Assembly (NCBI GenBank): GCA_017459665.1
Contig: JAFUCN010000036.1
Span: forward strand, 1 to 32,456
Length of the DNA stretch: 32,456 nucleotides
Reading direction: 5' to 3'
Source: Methanobrevibacter sp.
GTDB taxonomy: Archaea > Methanobacteriota > Methanobacteria > Methanobacteriales > Methanobacteriaceae
Both the position numbers and the translations under genes were made by a program. The notes beneath the pieces were generated by a model. It had not been told where the DNA came from and searched no databases. It saw nothing but the letters and a program-made list of their open reading frames with translations. Shown piece after piece: positions 1,343-18,950 of this stretch; the stretch's first letter is position 1; each line of letters starts with the position of its first letter.

Positions 1343-1375
1343 ATAATTCACCTTGTACAAGTCGTGAAAAATATC

Positions 1376-1472
1376 TAATATATATAAAAAATTGCAATTT
1401 TTAAAATAAGTTATAGAATTTTTACATAGTATTAGATATACATATGTAGTAAGAACACACTTATAAAGGTTT
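1376..1472 (-). promoter_or_regulatory. Candidate hdrA promoter region (two TATA boxes)
   Basis: The 299-base gap between the AEC gene and hdrA (1343-1641) is very AT-rich and has no convincing ORF or RNA gene. Read on the minus strand it has two TATA-like boxes. AACCTTTATAAG at 1460-1472 has a good upstream context and would give a leader of roughly 95 bases. A run of TATATATA at 1376-1389 would place the transcript start almost on the Shine-Dalgarno. I favour the upstream box but cannot decide from sequence alone. Confidence 0.4.
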
Positions 1473-1641
1473 CTGAAAAAATCTTAGAGTAAAGTTTATA
1501 TATGAGAAATAAATAACGGACTTATATTAACTTTAAATAAATAAAAAAGATTTAATAAGGATATTTTTGACAAATAAAGAATTAAAATCTATTTTTCGAT
1601 AAATGAAAAATTTAGGTTATAATAAATTTTCAATTTTTTTG

Positions 1642-2547
1642 TTATAATACCATGATAATCAGCGGAAGTGTAATCAAAGAGATTACAGTGTTGATTAAAA
1701 TACAGTCAGATGTCAGCTCATAATCTAACTTGTATGAAATAGCAAGTAACAATGACATCATTCCAGATGGCATTGCGGCCTCAACAATTGATATAGTATG
1801 CTCCAGATTTATTAATCCTATTTGTGAAGCAAATATAAAGGCAACCAGTGGGAAAAATGCCAATTTCATGACTGATGTAAAGGCAATCATTGATTTTGAT
1901 CTAGAAATCGCACCCAAATCAATTGAAAGACCTAATGCAATCATGATTAGTGGAATTGCACCTTGACCTAGATAATTGATGGTGTTTTCTAAAACACTGC
2001 CTATTGGAATGTTTAATATATTAAGAAGAATTCCTAAAATTACAGCCCACAATGGTGGAAACAAAGCAATCTTTTTAACGGATTTTTTAGCAGTACCGCC
2101 AAATTTCAATGTTAATACAAATGAAAGTGCTAAAAATGTGATTAAAGTAGCTATATCACAGAAAATTGCTCTTAAAAAACCGTCCTGACCATAAATTCCT
2201 AAAGTAACTGGATAACCCATAAAAGCGGTGTTAGCTATCATTACTGTAACTAAAACAGACCATAATTTCTTATCATCTAACTTAAACTGTTTTAAAATTA
2301 AATATGAAACAATACCCGTTATTAAAGAAGAAAATAGAATTACAAAAGGCAGTATGCCTAATTTCAAAATCATTGCCAAATCAGCATTATACAATGCATG
2401 GAAAATCATACAAGGCAATAGAATATACATAACTATTTTATTGAATGGATCAATGTCTTTAGAAGAAAGGAAATCTATTCTTTTTAAAAAATAGCCCAAC
2501 CCAATCATTAAAACGATTGATAAAATAGTAATTTCTATTGCATTCAT
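1642..2547 (-). CDS. AEC-family (auxin efflux carrier-like) permease
   Basis: This 301-residue protein is almost entirely hydrophobic, with about ten predicted transmembrane helices and no signal peptide. Length, the N-terminal pattern (LSIVLMIGLGYFLKR, then NKIVMYILLPCMIFHAL) and the C-terminal EAAMPSGMMSLLLA segment match the AEC / membrane transport protein family, whose prokaryotic members export or import organic anions such as malate. The substrate cannot be read from sequence. The ATG at 2547 has no Shine-Dalgarno; a TATA box lies 28 bases upstream (2571-2580), so the mRNA is probably leaderless. It lies between radA and hdrA on the same strand but appears to have its own promoter. Confidence 0.85.
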   Translation of the reverse strand: MNAIEITILSIVLMIGLGYFLKRIDFLSSKDIDPFNKIVMYILLPCMIFHALYNADLAMILKLGILPFVILFSSLITGIVSYLILKQFKLDDKKLWSVLVTVMIANTAFMGYPVTLGIYGQDGFLRAIFCDIATLITFLALSFVLTLKFGGTAKKSVKKIALFPPLWAVILGILLNILNIPIGSVLENTINYLGQGAIPLIMIALGLSIDLGAISRSKSMIAFTSVMKLAFFPLVAFIFASQIGLINLEHTISIVEAAMPSGMMSLLLAISYKLDYELTSDCILINTVISLITLPLIIMVL

Positions 2548-2570
2548 GTTATAAAAGTTAAAAATTAAAA

Positions 2571-2580
2571 GTATATAAAA
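2571..2580 (-). promoter_or_regulatory. TATA box of the AEC permease gene (leaderless start)
   Basis: The minus strand reads TTTTATATAC, centred about 28 bases before the ATG at 2547. Archaeal TATA boxes are centred about 26-27 bases before the transcription start, so transcription would begin at or next to the start codon. This fits the absence of a Shine-Dalgarno sequence. Confidence 0.5.
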
Positions 2581-2586
2581 TTATTG

Positions 2587-2601
2587 AAAAAAAGAAAAAA
2601 A
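2587..2601 (-). terminator. T-rich terminator after radA
   Basis: On the minus strand, immediately after the radA stop codon, there are two T-runs separated by a single C (seven T, C, seven T). Oligo-T tracts without a hairpin are the usual archaeal termination signal. It would end the rpa-radA transcript and separate it from the AEC gene. Confidence 0.5.
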
Positions 2602-2607
2602 TTAAAA

Positions 2608-3543
2608 TTAACTAACGATACCTTCGCTAGTAATTTTAAATACGCATTCACCTTCAGGTAAATGAGGAGAATCCACTAAACGTGCAATTCTTTTTCCAGC
2701 CAAACCTTTTTTAAGCCAAATTCTATAAGTAGAAGCGTGACCTAAAACGTGTCCCCCAATAGCTTTGGTTGGACTTCCAAAGAAGGAATCCGGTTTAGCT
2801 TGTACCTGGTTGGTAATAAATACAGCTACATTGTATGTATTAGCAATTTGTTGAAGGGAGTGTAAATGTTGATTTAATTTTTGTTGTCTTACAGCTAAAG
2901 ACTCTCTTCCAACATATTCTGCTCTGAAATGAGCCATCAATGAATCAACAATGACTAATTTGATATTATTACCGCTTTGAATGAGTTCATTAATCTTATC
3001 TACCATTAAAATTTGGTGAGAAGAGTTGAATGCACGAGCAACATGAATTCTTTGTAAAACTTCTTGAACATCCAATTCAAATCCGTTAGCGATTTGTTCA
3101 ATTCTTTCCGGACGGAAAGTGTTTTCAGTATCGATAAATACACATTCACCATCAAGACCGCCAAGTTCTTCAGGTAATTGAACAGTAACAGCTAATTCAT
3201 GAGAAATTTGACTTTTACCAGATCCAAACTCACCGAATACTTCAGTGATAGATTGGGTTTCAATTCCACCACCAATTAAATCATTGAATTCCTGGCTACC
3301 TACAGTAATGTGACCAACATCTCTTCTTCTTTCAAGTACATCGTATGCAGTTTCAAAATCAATATTTTCAGATCTACGGGCAGCTTCGATAACTTTTTCA
3401 GCTACACCTTCACCAATTTCGGCTTTTACAGATAATTCTTTTGGAGTTGCAGTAGCTAATCTCATCATGTCTGCAAAACCTGCATCTATTAATTTTTCTG
3501 CGGTTTTTTCACCAACACCTGGTAAATCACTTAATTCAACCAT
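2608..3543 (-). CDS. radA: DNA repair and recombination protein RadA
   Basis: RadA is the archaeal RecA/Rad51-family recombinase, which forms ATP-dependent filaments on single-stranded DNA for homologous recombination. The 311-residue protein has an N-terminal helix-hairpin-helix domain ([19 protein letters not shown]), the FxxA subunit-joining motif at residues 63-66 (FETA), a Walker A GEFGSGKS at 104-111, a Walker B LVIVDSL near 200, and the DNA-binding loop region containing [10 protein letters not shown]. An in-frame ATG three codons upstream (3552) lies directly against the AAGGA element. The ATG at 3543 has normal spacing and gives the usual family N-terminus MVELSDLPG, so I chose it. 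It follows rpa after 21 bases and is probably cotranscribed with it, which suits proteins that act on the same DNA. Confidence 0.97.
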
Positions 3544-6310: not shown

Positions 6311-7711
6311 TTAATATGCATTTGGATTTTTCTTAACAGCAGTTTTAATCATTATAGCTAAGTCCAAACCCATGTGCCAGTTTTCTACATACTCAATATC
6401 GTATTGAATACGTTTTTTAATTGATGTATCTCCACGGCATCCATGAATTTGAGCCCATCCAGTCAAACCAGGTCTAACTTGATGTTTAACCATGTATTTT
6501 GGAATATCTTTTTTAAACTGATCTACAAAATATGGTCTTTCAGGCCTTGGACCTACAACGCTCATGTCTCCTTTCAATACATTGAAAAATTGAGGCAATT
6601 CATCAATACTAGTTTTTCTGATAAAGTCTCCAACTCTAGTTTTTCTTGGGTCATCTTTAGTTGTCCATTCGGACTTTTCCTCACTAGGGTCCTGAACCTT
6701 CATACTGCGGAACTTGTACATCATGAAAGGTTTTCCGTTATGGCCGATTCTTTCCTGCTTAAATATAATAGGACCCGGTGATGTCAGTTTAATGGCTATA
6801 GCAGTTAAGATCATGATTGGTGATGTGATAATTATTGCTATAATGGATATTACATAATCGGAAGTGTATTTTAAGAATTTGTTAAAATTATCGTCAAGAG
6901 GAACATACCTGATGTTTATGATTGGAATGTCTTCAATCATGTCAATTGACGGCTGAGCAGGGAAATACCTTATATAATCCGGAATGATTTCCGCTTTAAT
7001 ACCCACACGCTCACAGCTTTCCACTAGCTCATTTATACGATAATAATACATCAACGGAATAGCCAGGACAACTCTGTCATACCTGTTATGACTTAAAATA
7101 TAGTCAATATCCTTAAATGCGCCAATAATTCTGCTTCCTTCAACTTCCATGCCTATATGGCTGGATCTTCCTAAAAATCCGCTGACGACAAAACCCAAAT
7201 AAGGATTCTCCCTAATTCTTCTTGCGAAAGTAAATGCCAAATCATTGTCTCCCACAATCAGAATATGTTTCAGATTTCTATTGTTAACCCTCAAATTCTT
7301 CAGGATGCTTCTGATTGTGAACCTTTCGATAATTCCAAAGAATGTTTCGATTATTGCCAGCAAGAACAGCATTATCCTTGAAAAGTCGGGCTGATTAATA
7401 ATAAACAGGATAGTAACTAGTGTAACAAATGCTACGATATTTACCTTAATAATCTGTGTTGCTTCTGAGAAAATATTCTTATAAGTTCTTCGGGGCTTAT
7501 AAAGACCAAATGCAAAGTATAAAAGTAAATATACAGGAACAACAGCAAATACAAAAAACAGGGCATAAGTCTGATAGCTCAAATGTCCCCCCTGTGAAAA
7601 TAAAGTTGTATTAAATCGTAACCAAAAAGAACAGACAAGAGAGATGGCTATTATCAAAACATCAAGTAATACTAATGTTACATTTAATATCCTTTGATTC
7701 TCCTTTATCAT
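6311..7711 (-). CDS. Polyprenyl-phosphate sugar-1-phosphate transferase (WbaP / EPS glycosylphosphotransferase type)
   Basis: This 466-residue membrane enzyme would start lipid-linked surface polysaccharide synthesis by moving a sugar-1-phosphate from a nucleotide sugar to a polyprenyl phosphate. The N-terminal 130 residues form about four transmembrane helices. A Rossmann-like CoA-binding domain follows (ILIVGDNDLAF). The C-terminal third is the catalytic sugar-transferase domain: a membrane-inserted helix, KQERIGHNGKPFMMYKFRSM, DELPQFFNVLKGDMSVVGPRPE, and RPGLTGWAQIHG. This three-part layout is the long WbaP/CpsE form. The ATG at 7711 follows a TGGTGT element. It is the last gene of the minus-strand glycosyltransferase run. 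The sugar specificity is not readable. Confidence 0.93.
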   Translation of the reverse strand: MIKENQRILNVTLVLLDVLIIAISLVCSFWLRFNTTLFSQGGHLSYQTYALFFVFAVVPVYLLLYFAFGLYKPRRTYKNIFSEATQIIKVNIVAFVTLVTILFIINQPDFSRIMLFLLAIIETFFGIIERFTIRSILKNLRVNNRNLKHILIVGDNDLAFTFARRIRENPYLGFVVSGFLGRSSHIGMEVEGSRIIGAFKDIDYILSHNRYDRVVLAIPLMYYYRINELVESCERVGIKAEIIPDYIRYFPAQPSIDMIEDIPIINIRYVPLDDNFNKFLKYTSDYVISIIAIIITSPIMILTAIAIKLTSPGPIIFKQERIGHNGKPFMMYKFRSMKVQDPSEEKSEWTTKDDPRKTRVGDFIRKTSIDELPQFFNVLKGDMSVVGPRPERPYFVDQFKKDIPKYMVKHQVRPGLTGWAQIHGCRGDTSIKKRIQYDIEYVENWHMGLDLAIMIKTAVKKNPNAY

Positions 7712-7762
7712 GATTACACCAGAAAACTAGTTTTATACTACTTATTTTGTTATCATGACTAA

Positions 7763-8620
7763 TTAAACTTTCTTTTTAAAAATATTCAAAAATAGCTTTA
7801 AAGCGCATAAAAGAGCAATTCCAATATAAACAACTGTATTTACTATAAATGAAGACTCCTCTGCATGATTTTTTTTATAATATATATACATTGCACGGTA
7901 AAACTCATAAATCAGTTTGGATTTCTGTTTTTTGCTGCTTGCACCTTTAAGGTGGGTTATCTTAGACTCACCATAATAGACTATTTTCCAGCCTGATTTT
8001 TTTATTCTATAACATAAATCAATATCCTCGCCATACATGAAGAATGTCTCGTCTAAAAATCCGGCTTCATTTAATGCTTTTGACCTTATAAACATGAACG
8101 CTCCTGTAAGACAGTCGATTTCATAGATTTCATCATCAGGCAGATTGTCCAGGTTATAGTTGTCGTCCTTGCTGTTGGTTGGAATATGAAACAGCCTGAA
8201 AAATGAGTTTTTGACATTTGGAAAACTTCTCTTACATGCCTTGTCAAGTTCTCCATTTTCCAAAAGAACCCTGCAGCCACATGCGCCGACATTATCGTGT
8301 TTTTCCATGTAATAATAAATGTTTTCCAGGGTATTCTCCCACACGATAGTGTCTGAGTTTAAAAGTAGAACATATCTGCCTTGAGCGATGTCCAATGCCT
8401 GATTGTTTCCGGCCGCAAACCCGTTATTTTCGGCTGAAGCTATGAATTTGACCTTATCATTAAAGTAATCCTTTAGTCTGGATAGACTATCATCGCCTGA
8501 TGCATTGTCAACTACAATTATCTCATATGAAAATGGATAATCATATTCTAGAATTGAATTGATGGTATTTTTTGTCAAATCAAAGGTTTGATAGTTTACA
8601 ATAACAACTGAAAGGTCCAT
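7763..8620 (-). CDS. GT2 glycosyltransferase, rhamnosyltransferase-like
   Basis: This 285-residue enzyme would add a sugar to the growing lipid-linked glycan at the inner face of the membrane. It has a GT-A fold of family 2: SVVIVNYQTFDLTKNTINSI at the start, VVDNASGDDS, LLNSDTIVW (the metal/nucleotide-sugar site) and FFMYGEDIDLCYRIKKSGW, a signature shared with WbbL-type rhamnosyltransferases. A C-terminal hydrophobic helix could anchor it. With a complete dTDP-rhamnose pathway nearby, rhamnose is a sensible donor, but this is inference. An in-frame TTG nine bases upstream (8629) lies in the GTTGAT ribosome-binding site, so the ATG at 8620 is preferred. The stop of the preceding gene (8626-8628) overlaps that site, which suggests coupled translation. 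Confidence 0.88.
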   Translation of the reverse strand: MDLSVVIVNYQTFDLTKNTINSILEYDYPFSYEIIVVDNASGDDSLSRLKDYFNDKVKFIASAENNGFAAGNNQALDIAQGRYVLLLNSDTIVWENTLENIYYYMEKHDNVGACGCRVLLENGELDKACKRSFPNVKNSFFRLFHIPTNSKDDNYNLDNLPDDEIYEIDCLTGAFMFIRSKALNEAGFLDETFFMYGEDIDLCYRIKKSGWKIVYYGESKITHLKGASSKKQKSKLIYEFYRAMYIYYKKNHAEESSFIVNTVVYIGIALLCALKLFLNIFKKKV

Positions 8621-8625
8621 TATAA

Positions 8626-9585
8626 TCAACTTTTTAAGAATTTTAAAGTGTTAATTATTAATTTGTATTCTATTTTAAAATAATTTTTTATATTTTTTGA
8701 CTTGAATTTTACTTTGGTTATTCTGCTTCTGCCATTGAGGCCTTCACGAATTCCCGCCAGATAAGTTGAACCGAACCCTTTTCTTACAAAGAAAATATAT
8801 TTGATGAAAAATCCTAAAAATAAGAAAACAAAATTTACAATCTTTAATGGAATCGGAAGATTTTTATAAACCACCCATACATTGTTACGGGCTGCCAGTT
8901 TAACTTTAAATTCATTGTATCTGCTTCCGGATGTTGCGCTTCCAATATGGTAAACAATAGCTTGAGGACATAGCAGGTTTTTATATCCATTGATTTTTGA
9001 TCTTATTGCCAAATCAACATCTTCCATGTATGCAAAAAAGTTATCGTCAAATAAGCCCAAATCTTTTAAAACTGATTTTTTATACATTGCTGCTCCGGCA
9101 CAGCTTGAAAATATCTCCATAACTTCTGTGTATTCATCCGAATGGTGATTTTCACCTGTTTTTTTAGTCCAAGCAAGCAGGTTATATTCATCACCAACGT
9201 CATCGATTAGTTCTTTATTATTATACTGGAGCATTTTCGCTTGTACTGAAAAGATTTCTTCACTAGAAGTTATCAAATTTATTAATTCTTTAATTGATCC
9301 CTTTTTGATTTCTGTGTCATTATTGATTGAAAAAATTAGTTCGTTTTTAGCTTTTAAAATACCCTGATTAACTGCAGGTGCAAAACCAATGTTTTCTGTA
9401 TTTTCAATTAACACCAGAGGAAAACTATAGGAATTATTCTTAAGAAACTCGACACTTCCGTCACTGGACCCATTGTCAACAATGATGACTTCCCCAATGT
9501 GTTCACTGTCCTGGTCAAGTGAATCTAAAAATGTCTTAAGGAATCTTTCCCCGTTATAGTTTGGTGTTACTACAGAAACTTTCAT
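8626..9585 (-). CDS. GT2 glycosyltransferase, rhamnosyltransferase-like
   Basis: This second family-2 glycosyltransferase has 319 residues. Motifs in order: SVVTPNYNGERFLKTFLDSL at the N-terminus, VDNGSSDGSVEFL, SINNDTEI at the donor site, and FFAYMEDVDLAIRSKINGYK followed by a conserved His region (IVYHIGSATSG). A hydrophobic segment (FVFLFLGFFIKYIFFV) and a basic tail at the C-terminus suggest membrane association. It is related to but distinct from its downstream neighbour. The ATG at 9585 is preferred over an in-frame TTG at 9594, which is part of the TTGAT ribosome-binding element. The upstream gene stops one base before its start, so the pair is translationally coupled. Sugar and linkage are unknown. 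Confidence 0.87.
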   Translation of the reverse strand: MKVSVVTPNYNGERFLKTFLDSLDQDSEHIGEVIIVDNGSSDGSVEFLKNNSYSFPLVLIENTENIGFAPAVNQGILKAKNELIFSINNDTEIKKGSIKELINLITSSEEIFSVQAKMLQYNNKELIDDVGDEYNLLAWTKKTGENHHSDEYTEVMEIFSSCAGAAMYKKSVLKDLGLFDDNFFAYMEDVDLAIRSKINGYKNLLCPQAIVYHIGSATSGSRYNEFKVKLAARNNVWVVYKNLPIPLKIVNFVFLFLGFFIKYIFFVRKGFGSTYLAGIREGLNGRSRITKVKFKSKNIKNYFKIEYKLIINTLKFLKS

Positions 9586-9586
9586 T

Positions 9587-10546
9587 TTAATCAATTGAAT
9601 TTTTTAGTCTTTTCCATGATTTATAATATATCTTTGGATTTAATAAGAATAGCTTAATCTTATAGGCAAATTTCTTATCACCTTTAAATTTGGACATCTT
9701 ATCTAATAAATCCAGCTCCTTCATTTTTGAAAGAACCTCATCAAAGTCATAGTTATTGTAAAAGAAATAGTTCATGTTTCCAAATATTGCCTTTGGAATT
9801 CTTGAGGTAATAATTAAGTCTGCCAAATCGTTTTTTCCGAGTTTTTTATAAAATTCTGCCAGATTTTCCAATATGCTCACCAATTCAAAGCGTCTGAAAT
9901 CTGTTGTTCTTATTGCTGAGTCCTGTCTTTGAATATAATAATAAGTAACTTCATTACTGATTGCAACATCACTTCCAAAAGCCAATGCCTTTAAAGCAAA
10001 CTCTGTATCTTCACCATAAACTGCATCGGTGTTGAATCTAATATTATTATCGTCGATTATGCTTTTTTTATACATTAACTGCCAGAAATGAAATGGAATT
10101 TCCATGTTCAGTTCCATCTTTATAAAATCATCACATGAAATGCTTGTCCTTGAGTAATGGTATGGGTTTGATAGTACCTCACCCTCTTTTTTAACAAATT
10201 GGATTAAGCTAAAGTCACTTTCTCCATTGTACAGTTCTGACAGGTGATTTCCGGTTATATAGTCATCACCATCAACAAATACTATGTATTCGCCTTGAGC
10301 CTCTTTAAGTCCACGATTACGGGCACTGCTTACTCCTGAATTTTCCTGATGAATAACCTTATAGGAAATAAGTGATTTTGATAGCTTTTCATTTATGATT
10401 TCCAAACTGTCATCAGTTGAACCGTCATCAATTACTATCAGCTCAAAACTTTTAAAATCCTGATTGATTATTGAATCTAAAGTGCTACCTATATATTGTG
10501 ATAAATTATAGACTGGGACTATAACACTAACTTTAAAATTATCCAT
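9587..10546 (-). CDS. GT2 glycosyltransferase (EpsJ/capsular type)
   Basis: This 319-residue family-2 glycosyltransferase is of a different subgroup from the two genes after it. It has the common capsular-type N-terminus (VSVIVPVYNLSQYIGSTLDSI), VIDDGSTDDSLEI, the SGVSSARNRGLKEAQGEYI helix and a clear DxD-type site, FVDGDDYI. The likely base region is YGEDTEFALKAL. The C-terminus is basic and has no obvious transmembrane helix. An in-frame GTG at 10555 lies inside the AAGGTGGG ribosome-binding site, so I place the start at the ATG at 10546. It follows the TagB-like gene by 10 bases and is probably cotranscribed. The donor and acceptor cannot be predicted. Confidence 0.88.
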   Translation of the reverse strand: MDNFKVSVIVPVYNLSQYIGSTLDSIINQDFKSFELIVIDDGSTDDSLEIINEKLSKSLISYKVIHQENSGVSSARNRGLKEAQGEYIVFVDGDDYITGNHLSELYNGESDFSLIQFVKKEGEVLSNPYHYSRTSISCDDFIKMELNMEIPFHFWQLMYKKSIIDDNNIRFNTDAVYGEDTEFALKALAFGSDVAISNEVTYYYIQRQDSAIRTTDFRRFELVSILENLAEFYKKLGKNDLADLIITSRIPKAIFGNMNYFFYNNYDFDEVLSKMKELDLLDKMSKFKGDKKFAYKIKLFLLNPKIYYKSWKRLKNSID

Positions 10547-10556
10547 TTTGCCCACC

Positions 10557-11636
10557 TTATTTTAAAAGATAATCAATAATTCTTTTAGATGCTTGACCGT
10601 CTATTGCATCAAATTGTGTAGAAACAAATTGTGATATTTTACTTTTGTCGAAGTTATTATTTCCTATTACATCTATTAGCTCTTCAGTTGTATAAACTAT
10701 CGGTCCGGGAACGGTTTTTTTAAAATCATAATAAAATCCCCTCTCACTGGATAAATAATTGTCCAAATCATATGTGAAAAATACTGTCGGCTTGTTTAAA
10801 GCACAGAATTCTATCATTATTGATGAGTAATCGGTTATCAGCAAGTCGCTGATTAACATCAACTCCTGTTCATTGGAATAGTCACTTACATCAACATACT
10901 CGCCTTTAGAAGAAATTGACTCGCTGTAAAATTTGTTTATCTTTGGATGAAGCCTTAAGGCCAATACATACTCGCCACCTAAGGATTCGTTGAATTTTCC
11001 CAAATCAAGGAAATTGAACACATCATTGTATTTTTCATCTTCTCTGAATGTCGGAGCATAAAGAATGATCTTTTTATCATCTGGAATATTATATTTTTTA
11101 AAGAATTCTGATTTTAACTTGTCCAGATTATGGTCTTCAAAGTAATAGTCCATTCTTGGAAGTCCCAAAGCCTTAATTTTATCCTTAGGCATCTGAAAAG
11201 CTTCGCTGTAATATTCTTTGATTTTTTCAGAAGTTGTGATTAAATAATCAGTGTTAGCGGAAATTTTGGAAAGAATTGGTCTGTTTTCAATTTCAACAGA
11301 TCCTCCAAACTTTTTGGAAGCGCCAGGAGCATGCCATAACTGAACTATGATATTTTCATCTTTGAACTTCATGAAAGCAAGTGGAAAAAAGTTGTCGTTT
11401 AAGAAAATGTATTTTGAAGAAGCTAAACTTTTAAAACTGCTAAAAGATAATTTATCCTTGTAAAAAAAGTGAAATTCAAAATTACCCCTTCTCTCGAATT
11501 CCTTCTTAATATAATCCAGATTGCCCTTAAAAGACTCTCTTGAATCTATTATAAATGAAATCCTGTTATTTTTGACAGGAGTAAATTTAAACAGTTTAAA
11601 TAAAATTCCATATATTTTATGCTTTAGATATGACAT
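10557..11636 (-). CDS. CDP-glycerol:glycerophosphate glycerophosphotransferase family protein (TagB/TarF-like)
   Basis: Members of this family transfer glycerol phosphate or ribitol phosphate from a CDP donor onto a lipid-linked acceptor, as in bacterial wall teichoic acid synthesis. The 359-residue protein shows family landmarks: an IVQLWHAPGASKKFGG segment with the key His, DYLITTSEKIKEYYSEAF, IILYAPTFREDEKY, LRLHPKI, and SDLLITDYSSIMIEFCALNKP. It is close to the size of TagB. An in-frame TTG at 11645 is a worse start than the ATG at 11636. It lies between the small membrane pair and three glycosyltransferases, so it probably builds or caps a phosphate-containing surface polymer. The CDP-activated donor gene is not in this window. 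Confidence 0.88.
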   Translation of the reverse strand: MSYLKHKIYGILFKLFKFTPVKNNRISFIIDSRESFKGNLDYIKKEFERRGNFEFHFFYKDKLSFSSFKSLASSKYIFLNDNFFPLAFMKFKDENIIVQLWHAPGASKKFGGSVEIENRPILSKISANTDYLITTSEKIKEYYSEAFQMPKDKIKALGLPRMDYYFEDHNLDKLKSEFFKKYNIPDDKKIILYAPTFREDEKYNDVFNFLDLGKFNESLGGEYVLALRLHPKINKFYSESISSKGEYVDVSDYSNEQELMLISDLLITDYSSIMIEFCALNKPTVFFTYDLDNYLSSERGFYYDFKKTVPGPIVYTTEELIDVIGNNNFDKSKISQFVSTQFDAIDGQASKRIIDYLLK

Positions 11637-11648
11637 ATAGACCAATAA

Positions 11649-11930
11649 TTAATGGAAGAAAGCGAGCATTCCAGGAATAGATTCAAGCATAGCCTGAAGA
11701 CCTAAAATGAATATTGCCAAACCACCAATAAAGTTAATATAACGTGCATATTTCATAGCAACTTTAGTACCAAATGTACCAATTAAAAGCCAGCAGCAAA
11801 CAGCAATTAAACTTAAAATAGCCAATCCCACTGGATTAACATGAGCAGCAACCCCTTGAGCAGCCAAAATTAAGTTTTCAATGTTACCGAAGATAAGCAA
11901 ACCCATAAATTGTTTTAAGTCACTGGTCAT
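11649..11930 (-). CDS. Small 3-helix membrane protein, second of a paralogous pair
   Basis: This is a 93-residue hydrophobic protein with three predicted helices (about 8-28, 36-55, 64-82). I do not recognise the family. It aligns without gaps with the upstream gene when started at the ATG at 11930: both have GNIEN at 15-19, QGV at 25-27, VNP at 31-33, IGTF at 50-53 and GLAIFILGLQAM at 70-81, then E83. That agreement, and the GGGGTGA Shine-Dalgarno, fix the start; a further upstream start at 11954 would overlap its neighbour. Positive charges lie in the N-terminus (K6) and the second loop (K56, K60, R63), the reverse of its partner. Only one base separates the two genes. It could be half of a transporter or flippase; the charge pattern is observed, the function is not known. 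Confidence 0.85.
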   Translation of the reverse strand: MTSDLKQFMGLLIFGNIENLILAAQGVAAHVNPVGLAILSLIAVCCWLLIGTFGTKVAMKYARYINFIGGLAIFILGLQAMLESIPGMLAFFH

Positions 11931-11931
11931 C

Positions 11932-12198
11932 CTATTCACCCCTAACGGATTCAATCATTGCCTGAAGACCTAAAATAAAGATTGCAAGTCCACCGATAAA
12001 ATCAATAAAATCAACATAATCAAATAACAATTGGGTTGCAAAAGTTCCAATCATTAACCAAACAATAACAACACAGATACTGGCTATTCCTAATTTTAAA
12101 GGATTTACACCAGCTACAACACCTTGTGAAGATAATACCAAATTTTCAATATTCCCAAATATGATTAAACCAACAAAAGGTAAATATTGCTCCAACAT
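11932..12198 (-). CDS. Small 3-helix membrane protein, first of a paralogous pair
   Basis: This 88-residue protein has three predicted helices (about 6-28, 36-58, 64-82) and is a clear paralogue of the next gene. Shared features are GNIEN with the buried Glu18, a QGVVAGVNP turn, IGTF, and GLAIFILGLQAM. Its charges are opposite to those of the partner: K35 in the first loop, three Asp (60, 63, 66) in the second loop, R86 near the end. By the positive-inside rule it would sit with the first loop and C-terminus in the cytoplasm, the other way up from its partner. The start has a GGTGAT element four bases before the ATG. The polar and acidic residues inside helix 1 recall LysE/TerC-like half transporters, but I cannot assign it. 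Confidence 0.85.
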   Translation of the reverse strand: MLEQYLPFVGLIIFGNIENLVLSSQGVVAGVNPLKLGIASICVVIVWLMIGTFATQLLFDYVDFIDFIGGLAIFILGLQAMIESVRGE

Positions 12199-12420: not shown

Positions 12421-13428
12421 CTACCTGTTTGAATACATTTTTTTATAGTATTCCTGATACTGGCCACTTTTGACCTGTTCTGTCCAGTCCTGATTATCCA
12501 AATACCAGTGGATTGTCTCTTTGATGCCCACTTCAAAGGTATATTTTGGAGACCATCCCAAATCATTCTGGATTTTTGTTGAATCAATTGCATAACGCCT
12601 GTCATGGCCTAACCTATCTGTTACGAATTCTATTAGTGATTCATCCTTATCAAGTTCATCCAATATTAGCTTGACGATTTCGATGTTCTGCTTTTCATTG
12701 TTTCCACCTATATTGTAGACTTCACCAAGAACACCTTCATGCATCACCAAATCGATGGCCTGACAGTGGTCATAGACATGCAGCCAGTCCCTGATGTTTT
12801 TACCATCACCGTAGACAGGCAGCTTCTTGTCTTCTAATGTATTTGAAATCATTAATGGAATTAATTTTTCAGGAAACTGATAAGGCCCATAGTTATTTGA
12901 ACAGCGTGTGATATTTATAGGCAATCCGAATGTCTCACCATAAGCTCTTGTAATCAAATCCCCACCGGCTTTTGAAGCTGAATACGGACTGTTAGGCTGT
13001 AGCGGTGTGGTTTCTGTGAAATAACCAGTTTTACCTAATGTTCCATAAACCTCATCGGTTGAAATCTGAATGTATTTTTCAACACCATGCTCTTTGGCGG
13101 CATTCAATAGAACCTGTGTGCCCAAGACATTTGATTTGATGAATATTTCAGGATCTGTTATGCTTCTGTCAACATGGCTTTCAGCTGCAAAGTTAATTAC
13201 ATAATCGCACTCTTTTACCAAATCATCGACAACGCTTTTATCTCTAATGTCACCTTTTACAAATGAATAATTATCCTTATCTTCAATATCCTTTAAATTT
13301 TCAAGGTTTCCGCAGTAAGTTAGCGCATCCAAGTTAATAATTTTGTATTCGGAATATTTGTTTACCATGTATCTTACGAAATTGCTTCCGATAAATCCTG
13401 CTCCGCCTGTAACTAAAATCTTTGTCAT
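12421..13428 (-). CDS. rmlB: dTDP-glucose 4,6-dehydratase
   Basis: RmlB converts dTDP-glucose to dTDP-4-keto-6-deoxyglucose, the second step to dTDP-L-rhamnose. It is a 335-residue extended short-chain dehydrogenase with an NAD-binding VTGGAGFIGSNF motif at the N-terminus, FAAESHVDRSI, the substrate-specific STDEVYG loop with Asp-Glu, the catalytic YSASKAGGDL, and RCSNNYGPYQFPEKLIP. An in-frame ATG at 13440 is four codons upstream, but AGTGAT just before the ATG at 13428 is the expected ribosome-binding site and MTKILVTGG is the usual N-terminus. The rmlC stop lies inside that site. It is the last gene of the rmlD-barnase-barstar-rmlA-rmlC-rmlB run. Very secure. Confidence 0.96.
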   Translation of the reverse strand: MTKILVTGGAGFIGSNFVRYMVNKYSEYKIINLDALTYCGNLENLKDIEDKDNYSFVKGDIRDKSVVDDLVKECDYVINFAAESHVDRSITDPEIFIKSNVLGTQVLLNAAKEHGVEKYIQISTDEVYGTLGKTGYFTETTPLQPNSPYSASKAGGDLITRAYGETFGLPINITRCSNNYGPYQFPEKLIPLMISNTLEDKKLPVYGDGKNIRDWLHVYDHCQAIDLVMHEGVLGEVYNIGGNNEKQNIEIVKLILDELDKDESLIEFVTDRLGHDRRYAIDSTKIQNDLGWSPKYTFEVGIKETIHWYLDNQDWTEQVKSGQYQEYYKKMYSNR

Positions 13429-13432
13429 GTAA

Positions 13433-13993
13433 TCACTCATATTTAATTTGGGATTCCTTCAATCCTGACCATTCCTTGTCCTTATCAGACAATATTATCT
13501 CATCAATTCCTTCCAGTGGCCAGTCAATACCAATATCCTCATCATCCCATTTTATTCCACTTTCATCTTCACCGTGATAAAATTCTGTACATTTATAAAC
13601 GAATTCAGCTTCATCAGACAATACTAAAAATCCATGAGCAAATTTAGGAGGAATATATAACTGTTTTTTATTTTCATCAGACAATATCTCACCATACCAT
13701 TTGCCGTAAGTCGGAGAGTCTACTCTTAAATCCACACCAACGTCAAATACTTCTCCCTTAATGACACGAACAAGTTTGCCCTGAGGATAGTTAATCTGTA
13801 AATGAAGGCCTCTCAGTACGCCTTTTGTTGACTTTGACTGATTATCCTGAACGAAAGTCAAGTCATGACCTGCCTCTTTAAATTCGTTTTCCTGGTATGT
13901 TTCCATGAAATATCCTCTGTTGTCCTCAAAAACAGTAGGTTCAACAACAAACATGCCTTCAATTCCAGTATCGATAAAATTAAACTTACCCAT
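13433..13993 (-). CDS. rmlC: dTDP-4-dehydrorhamnose 3,5-epimerase
   Basis: RmlC epimerises C3 and C5 of dTDP-4-keto-6-deoxyglucose, the third step to dTDP-L-rhamnose. The 186-residue cupin-fold protein has FEDNRGYFMETY, FVQDNQSKSTKGVLRGLH with the catalytic His, YPQGKLVRVIKGEVFDVGVD, and the IPPKFAHGFLVLSDEAEFVYK segment. An in-frame GTG nine bases upstream (14002) is part of the AGTGAT ribosome-binding site, so translation should start at the ATG at 13993. The rmlA stop codon TGA (13999-14001) is embedded in the same element. Sixth in length among the genes around it but of normal size for the family. Confidence 0.96.
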   Translation of the reverse strand: MGKFNFIDTGIEGMFVVEPTVFEDNRGYFMETYQENEFKEAGHDLTFVQDNQSKSTKGVLRGLHLQINYPQGKLVRVIKGEVFDVGVDLRVDSPTYGKWYGEILSDENKKQLYIPPKFAHGFLVLSDEAEFVYKCTEFYHGEDESGIKWDDEDIGIDWPLEGIDEIILSDKDKEWSGLKESQIKYE

Positions 13994-13998
13994 AATAA

Positions 13999-14862
13999 TC
14001 ACTTGACCAAATTAAATAAGTATTGTCCGTAATCAGTTTTTTTAAGCTCTTCAGCTGTTTTCAATAATTCCTCATCGTTGATGTATCCTTTAAGGTATGC
14101 AATCTCTTCAAGACATGCAATATATAATCCTTGCCTTTTTTGTACTGTTTCAATGAAGTTTGATGCTTCAAGAAGTCCCTCGTGAGTTCCTGTATCGAGC
14201 CATGCCATACCTCTTCCCAGAAGTTCCACTTTAAGCTTTCCACGTTTGAGGTATTCCTCGTTTACAGAGGTTATTTCAACTTCTCCCCTCTCAGAAGGTT
14301 CCACGTTTTTGGCTATGTCAATTACTTCATTATCGTAGAAATATAACCCTGGAACAATGTAATTTGATTTTGGATTTTCCGGTTTTTCTTCAACAGACAG
14401 TACATTCCATTCGTCGTCGAATTCAACTACACCGAACGCCTCTGGGTTTTTGGTGTAGTAACCGAATATTACTGCACCCTCTTTTAGACTGGTTGCCCTT
14501 TCCAAGATTTCTGTGAATCTGTGTCCATGGAATATATTGTCTCCAAGAATTAATGCTACGTTATCGTCACCTATAAAGTCCTCTCCGACAATGAATGCCT
14601 CTGCAAGTCCGTTCGGTTTTTCCTGAACGGCATATTCGAACTTGATTCCTAAACTTGACCCATCGCCCAAAAGATCTTTATACATTGGCAAGTCACGGGG
14701 AGTTGAAATAATCAATATTTCCTTAATTCCAGCAAGCATTAAAACAGAAATCGGATAATAAATCATTGGCTTATCATATAAAGGCAGTAACTGTTTAGAA
14801 ACTGCTTTTGTAATCGGATAAAGACGGGTTCCAGAACCGCCTGCAAGAACAATACCTTTCAT
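13999..14862 (-). CDS. rmlA: Glucose-1-phosphate thymidylyltransferase
   Basis: RmlA joins glucose-1-phosphate and dTTP to give dTDP-glucose, the entry step to dTDP-L-rhamnose. The 287-residue protein has the nucleotidyltransferase motif [11 protein letters not shown] with its activating Arg, [27 protein letters not shown] with the metal-binding Asp, and [13 protein letters not shown]. The length is typical of the short RmlA form. An in-frame GTG at 14871 is inside the AGTGAT ribosome-binding site; the ATG at 14862 gives the standard [13 protein letters not shown] start. It follows the barstar gene after a 48-base gap with no promoter-like box that I could find, so it is probably in the same operon. 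Confidence 0.97.
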
Positions 14863-14910
14863 AATAATCACTATTTAAACTATTAATCTTTTAATTAATT
14901 AAGATAACTG

Positions 14911-15141
14911 TCAGGGATACAATGTTAATTTTAAAAACTCGTTTTCTGAAGCTACATCCTTAAATGTGTCAATTATGTCTTTTTCCACCATTTCACAGTT
15001 TATTATTTCAATTTCCGCGTCAATTTCACTAAGACAATCATATAACGCATCCAGATTTTTTCCATAATACTCAGGGAAGTTTAAAGCTTCCATCAGATAG
15101 TCATGGCCTTCAGTTTTGATTAGTTTTCCGTCAAGCTGCAT
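14911..15141 (-). CDS. Barstar-family ribonuclease inhibitor
   Basis: Barstar is a small cytoplasmic protein that plugs the active site of barnase. The 76-residue product carries the family hallmark FPEYYGKNLDALYDCLSEI (residues 22-40). The two aspartates that contact barnase in the Bacillus complex (D35 and D39 there) are present as D31 and D35; Trp38 is replaced by Tyr. The C-terminal strand (FLKLTLYP) and an acidic stretch before it fit the fold. Translation starts at the ATG at 15141, behind an excellent GAGGAGGT ribosome-binding site; the open frame runs further up but that part overlaps the ribonuclease gene and is not barstar-like. One base separates it from the ribonuclease stop, so the pair is translationally coupled. 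Confidence 0.92.
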   Translation of the reverse strand: MQLDGKLIKTEGHDYLMEALNFPEYYGKNLDALYDCLSEIDAEIEIINCEMVEKDIIDTFKDVASENEFLKLTLYP

Positions 15142-15142
15142 C

Positions 15143-15592
15143 CTAAACCTCCTCAAATGTGTTGTAGTGGTCGCTTGTGTAGTATACCTTAAAGTCACCA
15201 GTGTTATAGACTATCCTTTCTGCTCCACGTGCAGTTCCATTTGCGTTAATGTCACATTCTATGTATTTTGAATTGCTGTCTGGAAGCACATGCTGTCTGT
15301 TTGTAAATGTATCACCACCGATACTTTTTCCAGGGGCATAATCCTTAAGCGGACCACCGTGCCAACCCAATGCACGTGCCTCACTTTTGGTTATGTAATT
15401 GCTTGGAAGCTTGTGAAATTCCTTAATGTAAGCTGCAACCTCATCAACTGTGCAGTACTGGCCATCTTCTACTACATCAACATCACTTGAATCGTCACCA
15501 AAATTGAAAAAGTCAAAAAATCCTGCGCTAACGGCAGAAATACTGAATAAAGCGATAATTAATGCAGCAATAAAAACTAATTTCTTATTCAT
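15143..15592 (-). CDS. Secreted barnase-type ribonuclease
   Basis: This 149-residue protein is a barnase/N1-T1-family endoribonuclease. Residues 1-23 are a signal peptide (MNKK, hydrophobic core, VSA before the likely cut), followed by an acidic linker. Residues 46-149 align with Bacillus barnase: HKLPSNYITKSEARALGW, APGKSIGGDTFTNR and SDHYNTF are almost the same. All the catalytic and phosphate-binding residues are present: K69, D94, R99, E112 (general base), R122, R126 and H142 (general acid), matching barnase K27, D54, R59, E73, R83, R87 and H102. Two cysteines (47 and 113) could form a disulfide outside the cell. The ATG overlaps the rmlD stop as ATGA. The product should be exported and cleave RNA; its target is unknown. 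Confidence 0.94.
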   Translation of the reverse strand: MNKKLVFIAALIIALFSISAVSAGFFDFFNFGDDSSDVDVVEDGQYCTVDEVAAYIKEFHKLPSNYITKSEARALGWHGGPLKDYAPGKSIGGDTFTNRQHVLPDSNSKYIECDINANGTARGAERIVYNTGDFKVYYTSDHYNTFEEV

Positions 15593-16428
15593 TTTATCAA
15601 CTCAATATATTCCTTTATTGCCTCTTTATAGCTTCTAAGTGGTTTGAATCCTTTTTCTATCCAATTCTTATTGTTTAATACTGAGTAGCTTGGTCTTGGA
15701 GCAGGCCTTGCAAATTCAGATGCAGTTACAGGTATGACCTTAACGTCCAATTCTGCAACTTCAAATATGTATCTTGAAAATTCACACCATGAACAGCTTC
15801 CTGAATTGGTTAAATGATAAATTCCATAGTAATCCGTTTCGATTAGTTTGGCTATACCTTCAGCAAGATCCGGAGTGTATGTCGGTGTTCCCACCTCATC
15901 ATAAACAACAGTTATCTCTGAATGGTTTTCGGCAAGCTCAAGCATTGTTTTCGGGAAATTCTTGCCGTTGATGCCATACAGCCATGCGGTTCTGACAATG
16001 AAGAATTTATCCAATATTTCCTGAATGGCCTTTTCCCCTTCAAGTTTGCTTTTGCCGTAAACGCTTATAGGACCAATCTGGCCATCTTCATCAATAGGAT
16101 CTCTTGCAGTTCCGTCAAAGACATAATCAGTACTTATGTGAACCAAGGGACAATCAACTTGCCTACATGCCAAAGCCAAATTCTTTACACCTTCACCATT
16201 AACGGCATATGCAACATCCTGATTTTCCTCACAGCCGTCCACATCAGTATATGCGGCTGAATTGATGACAATATCAGGTTTTGCATCACAAATAAAATCG
16301 ATTGTGTGCTGTTTATCTGTAATATCCAATGTTTTTGAGGTTGTAAGGATTAGTTCGTGCCTGTCCTTTAGGACTTCCTGCAGGTCATGGCCCAACATTC
16401 CATTAGAACCTGTAATCAAAATCTTCAT
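15589..16428 (-). CDS. rmlD: dTDP-4-dehydrorhamnose reductase
   Basis: RmlD carries out the last step to dTDP-L-rhamnose, reducing dTDP-4-keto-rhamnose with NAD(P)H. The 279-residue short-chain dehydrogenase has ILITGSNGMLGHDL at the N-terminus, NSAAYTDVDGCEEN, HISTDYVFDGTA, the catalytic YGKSKLEGE and FIVRTAWLYG. An in-frame GTG at 16437 is part of the ribosome-binding site, so the ATG at 16428 is chosen. It is the first gene of the rml operon and is divergent from wecC. Its stop codon overlaps the start of the ribonuclease gene by four bases, which ties expression of the ribonuclease to rhamnose synthesis. Confidence 0.96.
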   Translation of the reverse strand: MKILITGSNGMLGHDLQEVLKDRHELILTTSKTLDITDKQHTIDFICDAKPDIVINSAAYTDVDGCEENQDVAYAVNGEGVKNLALACRQVDCPLVHISTDYVFDGTARDPIDEDGQIGPISVYGKSKLEGEKAIQEILDKFFIVRTAWLYGINGKNFPKTMLELAENHSEITVVYDEVGTPTYTPDLAEGIAKLIETDYYGIYHLTNSGSCSWCEFSRYIFEVAELDVKVIPVTASEFARPAPRPSYSVLNNKNWIEKGFKPLRSYKEAIKEYIELIK

Positions 16429-16460
16429 AATAACCACTTAAAACTTTTAATATTAGTTTA

Positions 16461-16503: not shown

Positions 16504-17742
16504 ATGAAAGTATGTATTATTGGTCAGGGCTATATTGGGCTTCCGACTGCAGCACTTTTTTCAAGAAATCACTGCGAGGTAGTTGGAGTAGATGTTTCAC
16601 AGGAAATGATTGACAATTTAAACAAAGGAATCATCCACATTGAAGAGCCAGGAATAGCTGAAATAATCAAAAATGCAGTTAAAAATAAAGTGTATGTTGC
16701 CAGTCTAACTCCACAAAAGGCAGACGCTTTCATTATAACCGTGCCAACACCATATATTGTTGAAAACTACAGCTGCGATTTAAGCTATGTTATAAATGCG
16801 TGTGAATCAATCGTTCCTTATCTTGAAAAAGGAAATACCGTTATTGTTGAGTCCACAATCGCACCTATGTCAACCGATGAGACAATAAAGCCTATATTTG
16901 AAAAGGCCGGCTTTACAATTGGTGAGGATCTATACCTTGCACACTGTCCTGAAAGGGTGCTTCCCGGAAGAATCATTGATGAATTGATTCACAATGACCG
17001 TATAATCGGTGGCGTGACACCTGAGTGTGCCAAAAAGGCCAGCGAAGTTTACGGTCAGTTTGTTGAAGGAGACCTGATGCTTACCGAGGCAAAAACAGCT
17101 GAGCTTTCAAAGTGTATGGAAAATACATTCAGGGATGTCAACATTGCCCTTGCAAATGAACTTGCAAAAATCTGTGCGGAAATTGGTGTGAATGCACTTG
17201 ACGTCATTGAAATGGCAAACAAGCATCCAAGAGTAAATTTACACTCCCCTGGGCCTGGTGTTGGAGGACATTGCCTTGCAATCGATCCGTATTTCATTTA
17301 TGCAAAGGCTCCCGAAACCGCCAAAATCATCAAACTGGCACGTGATACAAACAATTCCATGCCTGACTTTGTATGTGAAAACGTTAAAAAGATAATTCCA
17401 AATGGTAAAATCGCCATATTGGGCGTTTCATATAAGGGAAATACCGGTGATGACAGGGAAAGCCCTGCTTATGAGATAATAGCTAAATTAAGTCCAAACT
17501 ATGAAATAGCTATCCATGACCCACACATTTCAAATCCTGATTTTATAAGCCTAGATGATGCGACAAAAGATGCTGATTTGATTTTGGTATTGTGTGACCA
17601 CAATGAATTTAAAAACTTAGATTATGAGCTAATTTTAGAAAATATGTCAAATCCTATAATATTTGATACAAAAAATATAATAAAAGAAGTTCCATCTGAA
17701 ATTACATTATATAATTACGGGAACTTGTTTGAACTAAACTAA
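16504..17742 (+). CDS. wecC: UDP-N-acetyl-D-mannosamine dehydrogenase (WecC type)
   Basis: The enzyme oxidises UDP-ManNAc twice with NAD+ to UDP-ManNAcA, a uronic acid donor for surface glycans. The 412-residue protein belongs to the UDP-glucose/GDP-mannose dehydrogenase family: an N-terminal NAD-binding GQGYIGLPTA, VESTIAPMSTDE, AHCPERVLPGR, and TAELSKCMENTFRDVNIALANE. The catalytic Cys257 is in PGPGVGGHCLAIDP, and the UDP-binding domain contains SYKGNTGDDRESPA. HPRVNLHSPGPGVGG favours the ManNAc branch over UDP-glucose dehydrogenases. A GGAG element precedes the ATG. The 2-epimerase that would make UDP-ManNAc is not in the window. Its last bases overlap the convergent DUF2264 gene. Confidence 0.92.
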   Translation: MKVCIIGQGYIGLPTAALFSRNHCEVVGVDVSQEMIDNLNKGIIHIEEPGIAEIIKNAVKNKVYVASLTPQKADAFIITVPTPYIVENYSCDLSYVINACESIVPYLEKGNTVIVESTIAPMSTDETIKPIFEKAGFTIGEDLYLAHCPERVLPGRIIDELIHNDRIIGGVTPECAKKASEVYGQFVEGDLMLTEAKTAELSKCMENTFRDVNIALANELAKICAEIGVNALDVIEMANKHPRVNLHSPGPGVGGHCLAIDPYFIYAKAPETAKIIKLARDTNNSMPDFVCENVKKIIPNGKIAILGVSYKGNTGDDRESPAYEIIAKLSPNYEIAIHDPHISNPDFISLDDATKDADLILVLCDHNEFKNLDYELILENMSNPIIFDTKNIIKEVPSEITLYNYGNLFELN

Positions 17743-18950
17743 AAGTTAATAGATTGGTCTGGTTGAATTGGATGGCCATTCCATGCTTTTTTACTTGTCC
17801 ATTCGCCAGCAGGTGAACTCCAGAATACATCATTTGCATCCAAACCTAAAGGCAGGAATACTGCACAGCATAAGTAAAGGCTACCAGTTGTAACATTTTT
17901 TTCTGCGATGTCAGTCTGTGAACCGTATAATCCCATCAGTAACCAGCCATCGCTTGTGAAGTTCTGATTATCATCGAAAAGTCTTTGAAGAACTTTTGTA
18001 AGAGCACTTCTTACTTGAGCAGGACTAATGTTTCTTGGTAAAATCTTAAGTAAAGCAGCTTGGCTAAGCAAGTGGAAAACGCCGCAACGATAAGTTAGGG
18101 ACTTTCCTAAAAGAGGATAAGTTCCTTCAGGTGAAATCACTCTTTCAAGTTGAGAAGCCAGTCTAGATGATCTCATTAGCTGCACATCCAAAAATTCACC
18201 GTCCTGAAGAGAATATTTTCTCATTACTGCTAAAATATCGTTGAGCATAGGGTGAATAAAGAGACTGTTGTAGAAACTTACATCAAAGTCTTCACCGTCT
18301 GAGTAAATCGCATCTCCTAGATAGAATTCATCTCTGAATTTTCTAACACCATATGTTAAACGCTCCTTATCGCATTCACCTGTAAATTCCAAAAGAGTCG
18401 CCTCAATCATTGCGGTGTATAACAGCCAGTGATTTTCATAAGGTGCTATTATTCTTGTGTTTTTCAGTTCACGGATTATTCTGGCCTGAACATCCATAGG
18501 CAAATTAAGCCAGATTTCATTTTTAGCTCTCAGCAATCCTTGAGCAAATAAAGCAACATCAACTAAAGATTGTTTAGGTTCAACAACAAAAATATAATCG
18601 TTATTGTTCGGATTAACAGCGTTTGTAATAGCTCTTATTGTTAAAACTTTGTATTTTTCACGAAGCTGACCTTCCTCAGATGCATCTGCTCCAAGTTCAA
18701 GCCATGGAGCTATACCATTGAATACACGTGCAAAAGCTTCAAGGTATGTAAACTTTTGACCTTCACTGCTTTTAGACTCTGCAGGCATGTTCTTTCTAAG
18801 CGCACCTTTTGAAAGGTTGTTTAAAACTGGGAAAGCTATTTTTTGCAATGTTGAAACCCAATATATCCTATCTTGCCAGACTGGAGATTCCTCCTTAATA
18901 ACTGGAGGTTCTTCTTCTTTTTTAAATCTTTTAAAAAATGAGTTGCTCAT
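17739..18950 (-). CDS. DUF2264 domain protein
   Basis: This 403-residue protein matches my memory of DUF2264, an (alpha/alpha)-barrel-like family. Features include YLEAFARVFNGIAPWLELGA, a central YENHWLLYTAMIEATLLEF, DGEDFDVSFYNSLFIHPML and a C-terminal SSPAGEWTSKKAWNGHP. Relatives have been linked to glycoside hydrolase activity on uronic acids (GH154), but I hold this loosely. There is no signal peptide: the N-terminus is basic and charged, so it should act in the cytoplasm, perhaps on glycan or sugar intermediates of the neighbouring cluster. No Shine-Dalgarno precedes the ATG at 18950; a TATA box 28 bases upstream suggests a leaderless mRNA. It converges on wecC with a four-base overlap of stop codons. 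Confidence 0.75.
   Translation of the reverse strand: MSNSFFKRFKKEEEPPVIKEESPVWQDRIYWVSTLQKIAFPVLNNLSKGALRKNMPAESKSSEGQKFTYLEAFARVFNGIAPWLELGADASEEGQLREKYKVLTIRAITNAVNPNNNDYIFVVEPKQSLVDVALFAQGLLRAKNEIWLNLPMDVQARIIRELKNTRIIAPYENHWLLYTAMIEATLLEFTGECDKERLTYGVRKFRDEFYLGDAIYSDGEDFDVSFYNSLFIHPMLNDILAVMRKYSLQDGEFLDVQLMRSSRLASQLERVISPEGTYPLLGKSLTYRCGVFHLLSQAALLKILPRNISPAQVRSALTKVLQRLFDDNQNFTSDGWLLMGLYGSQTDIAEKNVTTGSLYLCCAVFLPLGLDANDVFWSSPAGEWTSKKAWNGHPIQPDQSINF

Follow-up and report, generated by a model that had tools for sequence, protein, structure and literature searches.

Two short genes lie next to each other in a 32,456-nucleotide contig from Methanobrevibacter sp. (JAFUCN010000036.1), and this whole stretch is referred to here as the window. 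They encode similar membrane proteins with opposite charge patterns, which raises the question of whether the two proteins are the halves of a single inverted-repeat transporter. The genes are:

11932..12198, minus strand: upstream half (U), an 88-amino acid, three-helix membrane protein with an ATG start and GNIEN at residues 15-19
11649..11930, minus strand: downstream half (D), a 93-amino acid, three-helix membrane protein read from ATG 11930, with GNIEN at residues 15-19

U is first in the order of transcription (12198-11932) and D is second (11930-11649). The D frame is also open from TTG 11954 (11954-11649), a possible earlier start, but the alignment with U and with the relatives favors ATG 11930. 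The window proteins align without gaps, with 51 of 88 residues identical, and have in common the motifs GNIEN (15-19), VNP (31-33), IGTF (50-53), and GLAIFILGLQAM (70-81). Judged by eye from hydropathy values, each protein has three hydrophobic stretches. The charged residues are K35, three Asp in loop 2 (60, 63, and 66), and R86 in U, and K6, K56, K60, and R63 in D. The gapless alignment, the motif positions, and the charged residues were all as described in an initial reading made without database searches (the sequence-only reading), which numbered D from ATG 11930. The dN/dS values were about 0.07-0.14, which indicates purifying selection, in four comparisons with two relatives where synonymous sites were near saturation. 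A second U/D pair was found in another contig of the same genome (G000:C98:17472-18018).

The sequence-only reading had assigned opposite orientations to U and D, and the relatives bear this out. The locus set consisted of 174 loci (168 pair arrays and five other groups), many of them mutual copies from two collections. It contained 120 distinct pairs, of which 116 were scorable after four were dropped for gaps. The Lys/Arg bias is opposite in 116/116 of these pairs, with the excess located in loop 1 and the C-terminus of U and in the N-terminus and loop 2 of D; related rows are not independent, and the fairer figure comes from an earlier, smaller set, where the opposite bias was present in 84/84 pairs and in 27/27 once thinned to less than 80% identity. 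The recurrence of the pair, its gene order, and its charge pattern is far beyond chance. Applying the positive-inside rule to the Lys/Arg excess, U is predicted to be N-out/C-in, with K35 and R86 in the cytoplasm, and D is predicted to be N-in/C-out, with K6, K56, K60, and R63 in the cytoplasm.

A profile of 36 rows detected the family in 104 of the 151 genomes of the phylum, in four of 20 genera. The named records with one of the two proteins belong to Methanobrevibacter, Methanosphaera, and unnamed Methanobacteriaceae, many of them from animal guts. The copy number is even in 99 of the 104 positive genomes, a count that alone does not prove pairing in genomes whose loci were not read. The two genes are separated by 22 bp or less, or overlap slightly, in 104/116 pairs; the remaining 12 are one fusion and 11 pairs in which the script found no ATG. 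Five genomes have an odd copy number. Contig ends account for G053 and G072, where one copy or its partner is cut off; G078 carries a fragment interrupted by two stops, and G106 has a triple composed of one U followed by two D genes (L161:4700-5740, G106:C10, minus strand). The only candidate singleton among the five is in G058, a lone D copy with an open frame three residues shorter than its kin (L109:6001-6260, plus strand), which is perhaps a decaying remnant. This copy has no partner and keeps the downstream-type charges. Neither of the outcomes that the sequence-only reading had named as evidence against itself appeared, be it one predicted orientation shared by both proteins or single homologues without charge bias.

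The search reached this phylum, viral contigs, where the family profile had no match, and, through short peptide patterns taken from one of the two proteins, 84,980 genomes; distant relatives in other groups may have escaped it. A literature search found nothing on GNIENL in Methanobrevibacter and, among the matches listed, no article that dealt with this gene pair by its title or the start of its abstract.

Fused six-helix relatives had been suggested as support for the two-half arrangement, and one was found. In L077, from a rabbit-gut draft genome (the same place as G096), U and D are part of one 196-amino acid frame, and a charged linker sits where the C-terminus of U and the N-terminus of D meet, both of which are predicted to be cytoplasmic. 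Its close relative L105 retains a stop and a start at the junction. L077 is a single case from one draft genome, in which an assembly error is possible. L160, another candidate for an in-frame fusion, was dismissed because its sequence includes a run of N. For structure prediction the natural fusion stood in for the pair. An AlphaFold run without paired rows was poor (pTM 0.34) because all half proteins were aligned to the first half. With 21 paired rows (in-frame neighbors read through stop codons) and 14 single halves, the model reached a pLDDT of 87.6 and a pTM of 0.80, the kind of confident fold that had been looked for. The model has six transmembrane segments, three per half, and helices 1 and 4 are interrupted at the GNI of GNIEN (non-helical residues 18-20 and 122-124). 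Taken together, the near-constant pairing, the charge patterns, the fusion, and its model argue that U and D would very probably form an antiparallel membrane complex of two halves.

Comparison of the L077 model with structures by Foldseek produced no matches at E <= 0.001 in PDB and BFVD; among the matches listed, the only LysE-superfamily fold recognized was that of CcdA (5vkv, E=3.3). The best VIA-align matches were mostly halves of MFS proteins (NorA and others), with Z up to 10.2 and rmsd mostly about 4-5. MFS domains are also 3+3 inverted repeats. This likeness was set aside, as a Z of about 10 is uninformative for helical bundles according to the tool's own note.

SemiSWEETs are three-helix bundles that dimerize in parallel, and each protein could instead be a homodimeric carrier of sugars or small molecules of that kind. 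Weak matches to the NCBIfam model SemiSWEET_2 occur in 15/36 rows (best E=0.0017), which would fit this explanation, but unrelated families match equally well or better (SpoIIIAC 4e-4, PGAP2IP 4e-4), and the SemiSWEET_2 matches were therefore put down to composition. The fusion scores 14.9 bits against a cut-off of 80. In addition, both the opposite bias in all scorable pairs and the joining of two three-helix units by a single linker speak against a parallel pair. We consider a SemiSWEET-like carrier highly improbable and retain the antiparallel heterodimer.

The relationship of the pair to described families was then sought with Pfam and NCBIfam scans of both proteins, of the window pair linked into a single sequence, and of 36 alignment members, together with a Pfam scan of 23 members. 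Among the matches listed, no model reached its cut-off, and the scattered weak rows are treated as composition because the best of them belong to unrelated families. A search of PDB sequences with the family profile gave no matches, and PF02659 (MntP) produced no row for the window proteins or the 23 members. In profile comparisons, the fused profile matched the MntP profile over 123 columns (probability 87, score 44.3), compared with 18.9 for the reversed profile and 15.7 or less for 15 column shuffles. The match to the CcdA profile was weaker (25.5; reversed, 11.7; shuffles, 17.6 or less), and the TerC profile, made of three sequences, gave no signal. When individual proteins were ranked, the fused profile placed 8/8 archaeal MntP proteins and E. 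coli MntP above all 77 true decoys, the best of which was BioP (23.5). Two of six CcdA proteins also exceeded the decoys, and none of nine other E. coli LysE-superfamily members did (ArgO, RhtB, RhtC, RcnA, DsbD, MarC, and three TerC).

The signal is distributed unevenly between the halves. D alone scored above decoys for 8/8 archaeal MntP proteins, with E. coli MntP (19.0) under the best decoy (22.8), and it matched MntP helices 4-6 (probability 87) and not helices 1-3 (probability 2). U alone placed no MntP above decoys (best 19.9 versus a decoy best of 21.9), and 2/6 CcdA proteins exceeded its decoys. An acidic linker that is also present in MntP may contribute part of the fused-profile signal; D, which matches MntP by itself, has no linker. 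The sequence GNIENL is invariant in 36/36 rows of the family alignment, which includes both halves, and Q25 is nearly so. The Glu is invariant in both halves, and the family alignment sets that of D on an Asp of MntP, which we take to be an essential residue; when E. coli MntP alone is used, the alignment shifts by three residues. TerC and GDT1 each matched 0/151 genomes of the phylum. On the basis of the profiles, we lean toward the pair being a relative of the LysE superfamily, a remote one linked through MntP, and not an MntP member. Among the families to which the sequence-only reading had pointed (LysE, TerC, GDT1, and MntP), profile similarity was to MntP, and membership in TerC or GDT1 was not found. 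Its overall interpretation is upheld in part, through the opposite bias, the near-strict pairing, the fused relative, and the confident fold of the fusion; the pore and the export of a polymer building block that it proposed are conjectural.

For the history of the pair, an unrooted tree was built from the 64 rows of 32 thinned pairs. All 32 U rows lie on one side of a single branch and all 32 D rows on the other; this branch has a support of 100/96 and recurs in 99% of 200 bootstrap trees. The midpoint root, which was used for drawing, lands inside U and leaves three U rows on the D side. Most simply, one duplication would have come first, followed by inheritance or copying as whole pairs. 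The mean identity between U and D within pairs is 55.4% (44.7-70.9, n=116), while that between the halves of MntP is 25.8% (31 sequences). Because of this difference, the duplication that gave rise to U and D appears to be far more recent than that within MntP.

The genes that surround the pair in the window are:

10557..11645, minus strand: CDP-glycerol:poly(glycerophosphate) glycerophosphotransferase-like gene (PF04464, E=1e-75), directly downstream of the pair and included as context
7763..10555, minus strand: three family-2-like glycosyltransferase genes (PF00535 for 7766-8629, the other two by similarity cluster)
12421..14871, minus strand: rmlB, rmlC, and rmlA (dTDP-rhamnose synthesis), upstream of the pair, named by sequence reading and conserved in order
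15589-16437: rmlD (PF04321, E=3e-99)

In the loci drawn, 32 genes belong to the similarity cluster of the PF04464 gene, and most of them immediately follow a pair. The order in type-1 loci is rhamnose genes, U, D, PF04464 glycerophosphotransferase, glycosyltransferases, and sugar-phosphate transferase, and type-2 loci include several kinds of glycosyltransferases. Context was scored in 82 distinct loci, 72 of them with enough neighbors, and a locus was taken to have a glycan context when at least two of its four nearest genes were of a glycan type. Such a context was present in 45/72 loci and absent in 27/72, where the neighbors include, for example, thiolase/HMG-CoA synthase genes, an adhesin-like repeat protein, an MFS gene, and an ABC-2 protein. 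The second pair of the same genome has as neighbors an MFS gene and, beyond one small ORF, a gene for an M24 metallopeptidase, in place of glycan genes. Linkage to TagB/glycan genes is frequent and not obligatory, because 27/72 loci have no glycan context. The link to a TagB-like gene drawn from the letters alone therefore holds in the window, where the PF04464 gene adjoins the pair, and does not extend to the loci located away from glycan genes.

This context bears on a second alternative, that the pair exports a lipid or polymer precursor (a lipid-linked sugar or a glycerol-phosphate unit) for the neighboring surface glycan, as proposed for GAP. The LysE superfamily includes this lipid-exporting family, according to the accessible text of PMC4608589. 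The frequency of glycan loci and the position of the pair directly upstream of the PF04464 gene agree with such a role, but the 27 loci located elsewhere do not, and an assembly of six helices and 180 residues seems small for a lipid-linked sugar. Since those loci lie outside a glycan context and the family nearest by profile, MntP, exports metal, the suggestion that a polymer building block is exported was not sustained, and we regard a precursor exporter as unlikely. The variability of the neighborhoods would be explained if the pair were not a transporter at all and served instead as an antiparallel scaffold in the membrane, or as an accessory pair, by which different membrane enzymes are anchored or regulated. 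Such a role is consistent with the small size of the proteins and with the fact that no solved protein was matched by sequence and none significantly by fold. However, the invariant polar/acidic motif in helix 1 of both halves, with its predicted helix break, is a trait of transporter sites, and the profile similarity to MntP is that expected of a transporter. The scaffold seems to us less likely still than the precursor exporter, and the U/D pair is probably a transporter.

Several features of the loci were observed that stand apart from this question. A barnase-type ribonuclease gene in the window (15143-15592, minus strand; PF00545, E=8e-18; signal-peptide-like start) overlaps a barstar gene (14911-15198, minus strand; PF01337, E=7e-12). 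Both sit between archaeal rhamnose genes, and the ribonuclease cluster counts 29 members across the loci drawn, with the same position in type-1 loci. A DUF2264 protein is encoded beside the rhamnose cluster (17739-18950, minus strand; PF10022, E=2e-93), and a 1016-amino acid ORF (25092-28142, minus strand) matched no Pfam family at E <= 0.001. Near the fused gene of L077, within an archaeal glycan cluster, positions 712-3237 and 6980-8005 (plus strand) encode PF04765 glycosyltransferase-like domains, presumably of the TOD1/MUCI70 type, a name familiar from plants. Rfam searches of eight sources identified four tRNA matches only, in L095 and L102 and none in the window. L102 (4667-4825, plus strand) and L095 (4857-5009, minus strand) each have two tRNA genes close to the pair, which might mark an integration site.

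The mechanism that we propose starts from what was computed here, namely the pairing, the opposite bias, one fusion with its predicted fold, and the separation of U from D in the tree, and adds to it, by inference, the heterodimer, transport, the direction of export, and the substrate. Each of the two genes would supply one half of a single six-helix secondary transporter. U (N-out/C-in) and D (N-in/C-out) would assemble into an antiparallel heterodimer, and its pseudo-twofold axis would lie in the plane of the membrane. The GNIEN of each half would break its helix 1, so that two Asn and one Glu reach a shared central site from both sides. The pair would show in split form the 3+3 inverted-repeat plan that characterizes the LysE superfamily, its apparent remote kin through MntP, and the halves would, most simply, go back to a three-helix gene that was duplicated once in the Methanobrevibacter/Methanosphaera lineage. 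Overall, we find it rather likely that the pair is such a split 3+3 inverted-repeat, six-helix secondary transporter made of antiparallel halves and probably related to LysE.

With respect to the substrate, a divalent cation exporter, e.g., of Mn2+, is the best single guess because relatives in the superfamily export Mn2+ or Ca2+, and glycosylation or the synthesis of lipoteichoic acid suffers when they are lost; it is a tentative assignment that may well be wrong, and the finding of no Mn riboswitch in the eight sources searched counts against it. In the accessible portions of PMC7380456 and PMC12096827, LysE-superfamily relatives move Mn2+ or Ca2+ out of the cytoplasm, loss of metal export by TMEM165/Gdt1p harms glycosylation (PMC7380456), and TerC proteins are tied to LtaS and lipoteichoic acid synthesis, which is harmed by their loss (PMC12096827). 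Export of a divalent cation such as Mn2+ by the pair would then supply metal-dependent enzymes at the cell surface, including those of glycan assembly. MntP is present in 113/151 genomes of the phylum, many of which also have the pair, so the pair is not simply a replacement for MntP. A more speculative proposal, doubtful at this stage, is that the family is a recent, independent replay of the origin of inverted repeats, with its successive stages visible in one archaeal lineage. A three-helix half nearest to the C-terminal half of MntP would have been duplicated in gut methanogens, its copies fixed in opposite orientations as a near-obligate pair, and the two fused in one lineage. The product would be a minimal divalent-cation exporter that provides metal to surface glycan enzymes and would correspond in archaea to TMEM165/GDT1 of the Golgi.

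Inverted-repeat transporters are thought to have arisen from small dual-topology proteins by duplication and fusion, and two families that show the steps were known in 2014, as stated in the accessible text of PMC4067407. An archaeal family is now added to the few that show them, with 120 distinct pairs, one fusion, and halves 55% identical; with the halves still this similar, the fixation of topology is testable by swapping a few charges. The analysis also provides a testable role for a gene pair that has no family model and is found in most genomes of its four genera, whose carriers include Methanobrevibacter and Methanosphaera, common methanogens of animal guts.

SMR (EmrE/Gdx) and DUF606 are small membrane proteins that form proven or presumed antiparallel pairs, DUF606 existing as singleton, pair, or fusion. 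Their subunits have four or five helices, whereas those of the family described here have three by hydropathy, as does each half in the model, and neither family gave a row among the Pfam families listed for the window proteins and 23 members. TerC (PF03741) resembles the fused protein through a weak Pfam score over both halves (E=0.082) and through matches in 5/36 rows, and differs in that the score is 13.1 bits against a cut-off of 27.8, in addition to the lack of profile signal with its three sequences and of matches in the phylum. MntP (PF02659) has the 3+3 helices seen here in the fusion and its model, as well as the fused-profile match, but it is one chain, its halves are on average 26% identical, and the likeness does not reach the Pfam level. 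The closest parallel, by description, is UPF0016/GDT1, for which the accessible text of PMC4067407 reports a series of singletons, pairs, and fusions. It describes adjacent cyanobacterial pairs with Lys/Arg bias opposite by gene position, fused two-domain relatives with a charged central loop, and a cyanobacterial pair that complements yeast gdt1 only when both proteins are expressed, and it reports pairs in cyanobacteria only. Both families consist of three-helix single-domain proteins with adjacent pairs of opposite bias (here 116/116) and fused forms. PF01169 (UPF0016/GDT1) gave no row for the window proteins (E up to 10) or among all 19 families matched by the 23 members, and it is also absent among the 25 of 46 families listed for the 36 rows. 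The E-x-G-D-(K/R)-(S/T) motif of UPF0016/GDT1 is absent here and GNIENL is found instead, and the family described here is archaeal and almost always paired, with halves 55% identical. The kind of arrangement is already known from the UPF0016/GDT1 series, with UPF0016 compared by description and TerC by three sequences, and the family itself is new to the libraries searched.
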